A stretch of DNA of 64,000 bases from Candidatus Schekmanbacteria bacterium. GTDB taxonomy: Bacteria; Schekmanbacteria; GWA2-38-11; J061. Positions 4,541 through 7,103 of the stretch are shown in pieces (the stretch's first letter is position 1; each line of letters starts with the position of its first letter). The DNA is taken from positions 529,857-593,856 of the forward strand of contig JACRJM010000015.1 in assembly GCA_016219965.1 (NCBI GenBank). Reading direction: 5' to 3'. The position numbers and the translations under genes are program-made. The notes below the pieces were generated by a model. That model had not been told where the DNA came from. It worked only from the letters and a program-made list of their open reading frames with translations, and made no database searches.

Positions 4541-5194
4541 ATGAAAAACTTTAATTCAGTCCGGGAAAAGATGGTTGTTGAACAGCTTGAGGGAAGAGAT
4601 ATCCATGACTTCCGGGTTCTCTATGCCATGCGTAAGGTTCCCCGGCATTTGTTTGTTCCTGAAGACGTAAGGCATAAAGCGTATAGTGATTCACCTCTCC
4701 CCATCGGTGAAAATCAGACAATATCACAGCCATATATGGTTGCCCTTATGACACAACTTCTTTGTCTAAAAGGTGGAGAAAAAATACTTGAGATAGGTAC
4801 TGGCTCAGGCTATCAGACAGCAGTCCTTGCTGAAATAGTAGGAGAGGTCTATTCAATAGAAAGAATCAGTTCTTTGCTTCTGCATGCACGGGAAGCTCTT
4901 GATGCTCTTGGCTATACAAATATAACAACACGAATATTTGACGGAACCTACGGCTGGAAAGAGAAAGCTCCCTACGATGATATAATTATAACTGCTGCAT
5001 CTCCTGATGTACCATTAGGGCTAGTTGAGCAACTCAAGACTTATGGGAAGATGATTGTTCCTGTCGGGAATGGGGAAAGCCAGATACTTAAGCGGGTTAC
5101 AAAAAATGAAAATGGTGTAGAAATTGAAGATATTTGCGGTTGCGTTTTTGTGAAATTGATAGGAAGATACGGCTGGTCAAATAATTCTTTATAG
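4541..5194 (+). CDS. pcm: Protein-L-isoaspartate O-methyltransferase
   Basis: This 217-residue protein uses S-adenosylmethionine to methylate isoaspartyl residues in damaged proteins, starting their repair in the cytoplasm. Family motifs are clear: VPRHLFVPE, AYSDSPLPIGENQTISQPYM (substrate loop) and the SAM-binding motif I ILEIGTGSGYQTAVLA, followed by VYSIERI. The length matches the family (about 205-220). A TTGCTT-N17-TATAAC promoter precedes it, so it is probably transcribed independently of surE despite the usual surE-pcm pairing. tRNA-Pro follows 25 bases after the stop and may be co-transcribed. Confidence 0.95.
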   Translation: MKNFNSVREKMVVEQLEGRDIHDFRVLYAMRKVPRHLFVPEDVRHKAYSDSPLPIGENQTISQPYMVALMTQLLCLKGGEKILEIGTGSGYQTAVLAEIVGEVYSIERISSLLLHAREALDALGYTNITTRIFDGTYGWKEKAPYDDIIITAASPDVPLGLVEQLKTYGKMIVPVGNGESQILKRVTKNENGVEIEDICGCVFVKLIGRYGWSNNSL

Positions 5195-5219: not shown

Positions 5220-5293
5220 CGGGGCGTGGCTCAGCCTGGTAGAGCACACGGTTCGGGACCGTGGAGTCGCTGGTTCAAATCCAGTCGCCCCGA
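5220..5293 (+). tRNA. tRNA-Pro (anticodon CGG)
   Basis: The sequence folds into a full cloverleaf. The acceptor CGGGGCG pairs with CGCCCCG, including the C1-G72 pair typical of bacterial tRNA-Pro. The D arm is GCTC/GAGC. The anticodon stem CACGG/CCGTG carries loop TTCGGGA (anticodon CGG at 34-36), and the T arm is GCTGG TTCAAAT CCAGT. The discriminator base is A. The 3' CCA is not encoded and must be added by nucleotidyltransferase. Confidence 0.97.
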
Positions 5294-5311: not shown

Positions 5312-5782
5312 ATGATAGAAAACTCATATAAACGACAAGTTGCTGTAATCGGAGCAGGAGATTGCACAACCAAAGAATATGAGACGGCAATTGAGCTTGG
5401 TAGATCTCTTGCATTATTAGGAATTATCGTAATATGTGGAGGGCTCGGTGGAGTTATGGAGGCTGTCTGTAAAGGAGCTAAGGATGCAGGTGGCACTACA
5501 GTTGGAATACTTCCGGGTGAGCAGATAGAAGCTAATTCCTATGTTGATATTCCGATTGTGACAGCAATGAGTCACGCGAGAAATAATATTGTTGTTAGAA
5601 GCGGAGAATGTGTGATTGCAATTGGCGGAGGCTATGGTACACTCTCTGAAATAGCCATAGCCATTAAACTTGGCAAGCCAGTGATAGGGATAAATACCTG
5701 GACTGTATCCGATGAAATAATAGCTGCAGATTCCCATGAAGAAGCAATCTTATTGATAAAAAAAACACTCGAAATAGAATAA
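5312..5782 (+). CDS. SLOG/LOG-family Rossmann protein (TIGR00725-like)
   Basis: This 156-residue protein has a Rossmann-like SLOG fold: VAVIGAGDC at the start, VICGGLGGVMEAVCKGA, and the phosphate-binding IAIGGGYGTLSEIAIA loop, a version of the PGGxGTxxE motif of LOG/lysine-decarboxylase-like proteins. True LOG enzymes release cytokinin-type bases from nucleotide monophosphates. This small branch (TIGR00725 type) has no established substrate, so only nucleotide or nucleotide-sugar binding is inferred. It begins 19 bases after the tRNA, with no obvious Shine-Dalgarno, and ends 25 bases before the rlmD-like gene. Confidence 0.8.
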   Translation: MIENSYKRQVAVIGAGDCTTKEYETAIELGRSLALLGIIVICGGLGGVMEAVCKGAKDAGGTTVGILPGEQIEANSYVDIPIVTAMSHARNNIVVRSGECVIAIGGGYGTLSEIAIAIKLGKPVIGINTWTVSDEIIAADSHEEAILLIKKTLEIE

Positions 5783-5793
5783 ATAATATTTCT

Positions 5794-5799
5794 AAGGAG
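5794..5799 (+). promoter_or_regulatory. Shine-Dalgarno that points to an ATA start for the RlmD-like gene
   Basis: AAGGAG at 5794-5799 sits 8 bases before the in-frame ATA at 5808. It is the only good ribosome-binding site near the start of the TRAM-containing frame, and no ATG, GTG or TTG occurs in frame between the upstream stop (TAA at 5793) and the ATG at 5886. Confidence 0.6.
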
Positions 5800-5807
5800 T
5801 ATTAGTC

Positions 5808-7103
5808 ATAGAAGAAATAGTCACAAAAATTGAGAAGCCTCTTTATGGAGGTTCTGGTTTTGGTTGGGTACTTGATAAACCTGTAATGATTCCATTTGGA
5901 ATAACTGAAGAAACCGTAAAAGCAGAAATAGTTGAGACTAAGAAAGACTACCTGATTGCGAAAATCACTGGGTTCGTAAAGGCCTCTCCGGAAAGAATAA
6001 CCCCGCCCTGTACTTATTTCCCTGATTGCGGTGGGTGTGATTATCAGCATGTAACTTATCGTGGTCAGCTAATGATGAAAATGGCCATTATTAAAGATAT
6101 GCTTAAAAGGGTAGGTAAGATAGAAAAACCATTTGTTAATCCAATTATTCCTTCTCCTGACCCTTTCAACTATAGAACGCGTGTTGAACTTAAAGTATCT
6201 AAAAAAAGACAAAAAAATGATGCCTTCCTTGGTTTTTATAAAAAAAACAGCCACAATATAGTTCAGATAGAAAAATGCCTGATATGCCATCCAAAGATAA
6301 ATGAAGTTATAGAAGCTATAAACTATTTCTGCGGAAACGACATAAATAAACATACAGAAAAAATCAAGATTGCTCTTTGTGCTGTCTCTTCAAAAATGAT
6401 TTTAACTCTCAAAGGAGAAAAGTTTCCCAAAAATATGATTGATCGATTAGGTGCAGACCTTAAGAAATATGTTAAGGGGGTTGAGGGGATAGTCATTGAA
6501 GAGCCCAGAAGAGTCGCGATAAACGGAAAAGATTATTTTAATGAAAGTATTGGCGAACTAAAATATCGTGTAAATTCAAACTCATTCTTTCAGATAAATC
6601 ATCTATTACGCGAAGACCTTGTGAGGTTAATATTAAGGCTTTGTAGTCCAAAAAAAACAGATTTTTTTGCTGATATTTACTCAGGTGTTGGGACTTTTTC
6701 CATACCTCTGGCACAAAAAGTAAATGAAGTAATATGTATAGAGGATAATGAAAATGCTGTTAAAGATGCGCAGGCTAATATTCGAGCACATAAACTAAAA
6801 AATATTTCATATGTAAAGGGAGACGCAGGTAATGCTTTAAAAGCAGTTTTTGAAGATAATGATAAAATTAGTGGTGTTTTATTGAATCCGCCAAGATCTG
6901 GGTGTACCAACGACGTAAAATCAAGGATTGCAAAAGCAATGGTAAATAAAATAATTTATCTTTCATGTGATCCTGCAACTCTTTCACGAGATATTTCTTT
7001 TTTTGTAAATAATGGCTACCAAATAGATGAGATACAGCCAATAGATCTTTTTCCTCAATCATATCATATAGAAACTGCAATAAAACTTAGCAGGGCACAG
7101 TAA
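5808..7103 (+). CDS. rlmD: 23S rRNA (uracil-5-)-methyltransferase, RlmD/RumA type, likely ATA start
   Basis: This SAM-dependent enzyme makes 5-methyluridine in 23S rRNA. From the ATG at 5886 the protein would be 405 residues but lack the first half of its TRAM RNA-binding domain. The 26 codons before it encode EEIVTKIEKPLYGGSGFGWV, the expected TRAM start, so I place the start at ATA 5808 (431 residues). The Cys cluster C-x5-C-x2-C (CTYFPDCGGC), with a later CLIC, suits an Fe-S cluster. The methyltransferase core shows SNSFFQIN, DIYSGVGTFS, NPPRSG and YLSCDPATLSRD with the nucleophilic Cys. Family membership is firm; RlmD versus RlmC-like target choice is not. Confidence 0.88.
   Translation: MEEIVTKIEKPLYGGSGFGWVLDKPVMIPFGITEETVKAEIVETKKDYLIAKITGFVKASPERITPPCTYFPDCGGCDYQHVTYRGQLMMKMAIIKDMLKRVGKIEKPFVNPIIPSPDPFNYRTRVELKVSKKRQKNDAFLGFYKKNSHNIVQIEKCLICHPKINEVIEAINYFCGNDINKHTEKIKIALCAVSSKMILTLKGEKFPKNMIDRLGADLKKYVKGVEGIVIEEPRRVAINGKDYFNESIGELKYRVNSNSFFQINHLLREDLVRLILRLCSPKKTDFFADIYSGVGTFSIPLAQKVNEVICIEDNENAVKDAQANIRAHKLKNISYVKGDAGNALKAVFEDNDKISGVLLNPPRSGCTNDVKSRIAKAMVNKIIYLSCDPATLSRDISFFVNNGYQIDEIQPIDLFPQSYHIETAIKLSRAQ

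Follow-up and report, generated by a model that had tools for sequence, protein, structure and literature searches.

The starts closest to the one considered here are those of infC, pcnB and ccpN, a known group of genes that begin with AUU, AUC or AUA (AUH) and are discriminated by IF3. The infC gene starts with one of these codons behind a strong Shine-Dalgarno (SD) sequence. IF3 is described as repressing starts of this type in E. coli and Streptomyces (PMC5472188), and infC of S. aureus begins with AUA (PMC13009471). E. coli pcnB, a gene for an RNA enzyme made at a low level, begins with AUU, and ccpN of S. aureus and B. subtilis begins with AUA behind an extended SD sequence conserved between the two genera; measured against an AUG reporter, the AUA start of S. 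aureus ccpN yields about 10% when the medium is poor and up to 30% when it is rich (PMC13009471). Conserved non-canonical starts also exist outside AUH: sigR of Streptomyces, which is repressed by IF3, begins with GTC in 32 of 34 species and with GTT in the other two (PMC5472188). In one survey, a single one of 61,358 ancestral AUG starts had changed to AUU (PMC5622118). IF3 acts in vitro against weak pairing at the third base (PMC10158994).

Here we describe an rlmD-type gene of an uncultured Candidatus Schekmanbacteria bacterium, the translation of which very probably begins at an ATA codon. The gene lies in a stretch of 64,000 nucleotides, referred to as the window, and was compared across four Ca. 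Schekmanbacteria genomes (G000, to which the window belongs, G001, G002 and G003), three of which carry rlmD. As in the infC genes described elsewhere, infC of all four genomes, as read from sequence, has ATA, ATC or ATT at its start (L064, L065, L066 and L067). The infC gene is autoregulated by its own product, whereas RlmD is no initiation factor, so that any link between rlmD and IF3 would run one way. The pcnB gene is comparable in its AUU start and its low-level RNA enzyme, but that enzyme is a different one and belongs to another lineage. The ccpN gene shares the AUA start and the conserved SD sequence; it encodes a transcriptional repressor, and its start was mapped experimentally, whereas that of rlmD is deduced from sequence. 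With sigR the likeness lies in the conservation of a non-canonical start, which in that gene is GUC rather than AUH and was tested by mutagenesis (PMC5472188). On these comparisons rlmD would join infC, pcnB and ccpN, and a case shared within a phylum appears to be new; no report of a non-AUG start of rlmD or rumA was found in the open-licence PMC literature. By protein family (TIGR00479) and best fold matches the gene product resembles RlmD/RumA and RlmCD. The solved relatives of both kinds are not known to have unusual starts.

The gene and its product

The gene follows a run of features on the same strand, listed here with its own parts.

4541..5194, + strand: pcm, protein-L-isoaspartate O-methyltransferase (Pfam PF01135, E 1.8e-64; NCBIfam NF001453, E 6e-79)
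5220..5293, + strand: tRNA-Pro (CGG), found by ARAGORN
5312..5782, + strand: gene for a SLOG cluster 4 / TIGR00725 protein, immediately upstream; it adjoins rlmD also in G003 and is a remnant in G002
5808..7103, + strand: rlmD-type 23S rRNA m5U methyltransferase gene, 431 codons counted from ATA, stop codon at 7101-7103 (TIGR00479; folds like spRlmCD and E. coli RumA)
5808..5981, + strand: N-terminal TRAM-type barrel, residues 1-58 (AlphaFold2, pLDDT 91-97 in this part)
6009..6038, + strand: Cys68, Cys74 and Cys77, three of four invariant cysteines (15 of 15 sequences)
6276..6278, + strand: Cys157, the fourth invariant cysteine (alignment of 15)
6966..6968, + strand: Cys387, presumed catalytic nucleophile, invariant in the alignment of 15

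No other tRNA gene occurs in the window; this one separates pcm from the SLOG gene along the series of features before rlmD. In G002 the SLOG remnant (L106:4187-4420, contig C42) has an in-frame stop and has lost its middle part. Matches to promoter and terminator consensus sequences near rlmD did not exceed the level found in shuffled sequence.

Judged by its sequence, the gene is an intact rlmD-type 23S rRNA m5U methyltransferase gene. Its product scores 310.8 bits against NCBIfam TIGR00479 (RlmD), for which the curated cut-off is 183.55, and the AlphaFold2 model, with a mean pLDDT of 91.2, finds its best solved-structure matches in RlmCD of S. pneumoniae (5zq0, TM 0.94 by query) and in RumA of E. 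coli (2bh2, TM 0.91), with 5xj1 (spRlmCD) and 1uwv (RumA) as further best matches. C68, C74, C77, C157, C387 and E422 are invariant in all 15 aligned sequences. By analogy with E. coli RumA, we take the first four of these to be the ligands of a [4Fe-4S] cluster, Cys387 to be the nucleophile and Glu422 to be a catalytic residue. No other protein of the genome exceeds the TIGR00479 cut-off, and target choice may thus be RlmD-like or RlmCD-like; the predicted target is U1939, U747 or both, and an RlmCD-type or a tRNA specificity may also apply.

The barrel, the name of which (TRAM) we take from the RumA literature, is modelled with strands at residues 3-7, 10-12, 16-21, 24-29, 36-44 and 49-58. 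According to this model, codons 2-26 are needed for a complete barrel.

The probable initiation site

Four elements define the beginning of the reading frame.

5793..5795, + strand: in-frame TAA; the SD match opens with the same three bases
5793..5799, + strand: Shine-Dalgarno sequence TAAGGAG; AAGGAG or GAGGAG is kept 7 nt before ATC in the two phylum relatives (L003 and L004)
5808..5810, + strand: ATA, the proposed initiation codon, to be read as fMet; the homologous codon is ATC in both phylum relatives, and conservation begins here
5886..5888, + strand: Met27, the earliest ATG in frame, which we reject as the start; its use would remove three strands of the barrel and cut a fourth

The TAA closes the frame upstream, and from there the codons run GGA GTA TTA GTC ATA GAA GAA ATA GTC and onwards to the stop at 7101-7103. 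The earliest ATG, GTG or TTG in this frame is the ATG at 5886. Among positions 5783-5899, canonical start triplets occur out of frame at 5830, 5845, 5860, 5864, 5872 and 5896 and in frame at 5886. A scan of all frames found none in 5783-5829, and therefore none that a frameshift could use there. A preliminary description of this DNA had reported the stop at 5793 and the lack of ATG, GTG or TTG before 5886, and both stand after the frame reading and the all-frame scan. It had also placed AAGGAG 8 bases before the ATA; this is correct, and the match extends to the 7 nt of TAAGGAG, followed by an 8-nt spacer. Among the 53 genes of the same genome that have an SD match of at least 5 nt, the commonest spacing is 6-8 nt (27 of 53), so the SD sequence of rlmD is normally spaced. 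RNA folding around the rlmD start was unremarkable in the three phylum genomes that have the gene (z of -1.1, -0.4 and +0.9).

Homologous starts within and outside the phylum

The rlmD product shares 44% and 42% protein identity with its two phylum relatives. In both G002 and G003 the codon homologous to ATA 5808 is ATC, 7 nt past AAGGAG or GAGGAG. The leaders of the three genes read taaggag-tattagtc-ATA, ataaggag-atatatc-ATC and aagaggag-ttttgcc-ATC, and the residues from the start codon onwards are IEEIVTKI, IEEIVTKI and IEEFVTKI. Conservation begins abruptly at ATA/ATC: of the ten codons before it, 0, 0 and 2 encode the same residue in the three genome pairs. Over the same pairs, pS/pN is 4.8, 3.1 and 17.3 in codons 2-26 and 1.9, 2.0 and 3.3 over the remainder of the gene, values by which codons 2-26 are under purifying selection. 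Together, the abrupt onset of conservation and the selection on codons 2-26 indicate that coding constraint begins at ATA/ATC in all three genes, behind a conserved SD sequence. We therefore place the translation start of rlmD with considerable confidence at ATA 5808, as the preliminary description had proposed.

The place that matches ATG 5886 reads TTT GTG in L003 and CTT GTT in L004, and the latter has no further canonical start within the 40 codons examined. The starts of close homologues, to which the preliminary description had pointed as a check, thus do not all fall at the position of 5886. In G003 the earliest canonical start of rlmD is codon 64 of the open frame, 27 codons after the ATC. 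The G002 gene has an in-frame ATG 19 codons upstream, with no SD sequence seen and no conservation of the sequence, and a canonical start at that ATG may be used there. No rlmD was found in G001 (97% complete); its match to the SLOG gene sits at the edge of a contig (C179:5-106), and its rlmD may accordingly fall in an assembly gap. A weak non-AUG start of rlmD, AUA here and AUC in the two relatives, is probably common to the phylum, a pattern drawn from three genomes, two of which belong to one family. The preliminary description, made from one sequence, could not show this sharing.

Outside the phylum, 55 of 58 RlmD-type loci carry ATG, GTG or TTG either upstream of the residue that aligns with codon 1 or no more than 5 codons past it. 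In the other three (L058, L061 and L062) the alignment starts no earlier than residue 56-66, where each has an ATG. Hence every one of the 58 has a canonical start close to its own N-terminus.

Surveys for further non-AUG starts

Conservation upstream of every canonical start was sought in 221 pairs of orthologous ORFs, covering about 0.85 Mb of G000 and 1.13 Mb of G002. On the G000 side, four pairs were conserved over at least 10 codons upstream of any canonical start: rlmD (28 codons), a glycosyltransferase gene (63 codons) and two cases at exactly 10 codons, which were read as alignment overrun. Four pairs on the G002 side also reached at least 10 codons, and all were judged by eye to be overrun. 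G003 (0.26 Mb) was compared with G002 in 73 pairs, to which G002 contributed one such case, a short 98-codon ORF, and G003 two, rlmD and a gene for a TonB receptor. The 50 pairs of G003 with G000 gave rlmD for G000 and again rlmD and the TonB receptor gene for G003.

A scan of coding potential based on codon usage covered 1,708 genes (652 of G000, 890 of G002 and 166 of G003) and flagged 22, five of which have AUH behind an SD match of at least 5 nt near the coding boundary: rlmD and a MOSC gene of G000, infC of G002, and rlmD and the TonB receptor gene of G003. The rlmD gene of G002 was not flagged because of its upstream ATG. The glycosyltransferase gene was flagged, and it has no SD match of 5 nt or more. 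A further candidate with an SD sequence and ATT (G002 C42:53666) was dropped for its low pre-score and a canonical start only 6 codons later, and the other 15 were put down to noise, repeats, broken genes or overrun. In a control of 300 kb and 226 genes of E. coli K-12, the scan flagged only prfB and infC. We take both to be true cases, the textbook examples of a frameshift gene and an AUU-start gene. The scan missed pcnB, which lies within the scanned stretches, and consequently undercounts. We do not claim that the phylum is enriched in AUH starts.

Three of these genes deserve separate description. The first canonical start of the MOSC-domain ORF (PF03473; L151:3329-4075, + strand; G000 C15:503329-504075) is at codon 90, and GGAGG-acaggac-ATT looks like an ATT start; the relative in G001 (L227) starts with TTG. 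In the family-2 glycosyltransferase gene (L212; G000 C15:29370-30143, - strand) the first canonical start is at codon 83 and the ATC/ATT before KYSIIIPAFNEE is the likely start; two relatives in G002 have ATG. The TonB-dependent receptor ORF (L197:936-2918, - strand; G003 C12) has 661 codons, the earliest canonical start among them being codon 147; an ATC start is suggested by 'gaggaggaaggtaa ATC AGA AGA', after which comes a stretch that resembles a signal peptide.

Probable initiation at AUA and a possible role of IF3

An initiator-like tRNA with a CAT anticodon has three G-C pairs in the anticodon stem, which we take to be the mark of an initiator. An unusual initiator tRNA was sought and none was seen, and no TAT anticodon occurs among the 30 tRNA loci read of 43. 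Given this ordinary initiator, AUA and AUC would have to be read by fMet-tRNA(CAU) with a mismatch at the third base. In the mechanism that we propose, the strong SD sequence 8 nt upstream would put AUA in the P site, where fMet-tRNA(CAU) would form two Watson-Crick pairs and one third-base mismatch. IF3 would discriminate against this complex, keeping rlmD output low and letting it rise when IF3 is scarce. We infer that rlmD is a gene of low output in vivo from AUA, and its initiation is likely to be sensitive to IF3, as the preliminary description had expected of an ATA start. The infC start could be either of two neighbouring AUH codons in G002 and in G003 (ATA ATC and ATA ATT).

We suggest, tentatively, that the phylum may keep a small set of AUH-start genes held down by IF3, in which rlmD would be the conserved core member besides infC. 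Such an arrangement would tie m5U methylation of 23S rRNA to the level of IF3, a link that would have outlasted the separation of at least two families of the phylum.

Selection, drift and alternative starts

The non-AUG start of rlmD may be held by selection as a translational brake, like the AUH starts of infC, and adaptive retention of AUH is the reading that we favour by a modest degree of confidence. The presence of AUH in three divergent rlmD genes, together with the change between ATA and ATC, suggests a single ancestral loss of AUG followed by retention. Were codon 1 free to be any sense codon, codon frequencies would put ATH there in about 9% of cases per genome, and in about 1 in 1,400 for three independent genomes, of which G002 and G003 are related to each other.

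The adaptive part of this reading, though not the ATA start itself, has a rival in drift: the ancestral ATG would have drifted to AUH because rlmD is dispensable and its low expression does no harm, and the start would have no regulatory role. RlmD is non-essential in E. coli, which favours this explanation. Candidate AUH starts that the relatives examined do not share also occur in G000, in the MOSC gene (ATT, with TTG in the G001 relative) and in the glycosyltransferase gene; lineage-specific AUH starts thus do arise, and drift is possible for rlmD too. It accounts poorly, however, for the retention of non-AUG codons and an SD sequence in three divergent lineages while codon 1 itself varies between ATA and ATC, and replacement of AUG by AUH is very rare, to judge from the single change to AUU in the survey cited above (PMC5622118). 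We regard a neutral relic as a rather unlikely origin of the start.

The remaining alternatives bear on the ATA start itself, and each is far less probable. Initiation at ATG 5886, which the preliminary description had kept as an alternative, would use the first canonical in-frame start and yield a protein without the first half of its TRAM barrel. Against it, codons 2-26 are conserved as protein with synonymous changes in three genomes, neither L003 nor L004 has ATG at the matching place, and in the model strands 3-7, 10-12 and 16-21 would be lost and strand 24-29 cut; we consider this start highly improbable. The same description had allowed for a base error, in sequencing or assembly, that hides an ATG at 5808-5810. 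ATA does differ from ATG by one base, but two other assemblies have ATC at the homologous codon, so that the error would need to have recurred at one codon in three separate assemblies, and the odds of this are slimmer still. Least credible of all is entry from another frame or gene, by frameshift or readthrough from the SLOG gene, which ends 25 nt before the ATA in G000, as that gene stops at 5782, the rlmD frame is closed at TAA 5793, no frame offers a canonical start in 5783-5829, and the SLOG stop lies 220 nt upstream in G003 and the gene is broken in G002. The idea that the start is shared through coupling to the SLOG gene was rejected on the last two grounds.

Implications

With ATA 5808 as the very probable start, rlmD would be a lineage-wide example, on an rRNA-modification gene, of the conserved non-AUG starts that are few beyond infC. 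Gene callers limited to ATG, GTG and TTG would mis-start such genes, and here they would give a protein that lacks half a domain. The comparative recipe used here, which combines conservation upstream of any canonical start with an SD sequence and AUH, also gave ATT and ATC candidates in the MOSC, glycosyltransferase and TonB-receptor genes. The weak start of rlmD may couple 23S rRNA methylation to IF3 as a means of regulation, or may reflect low expression that is simply tolerated.
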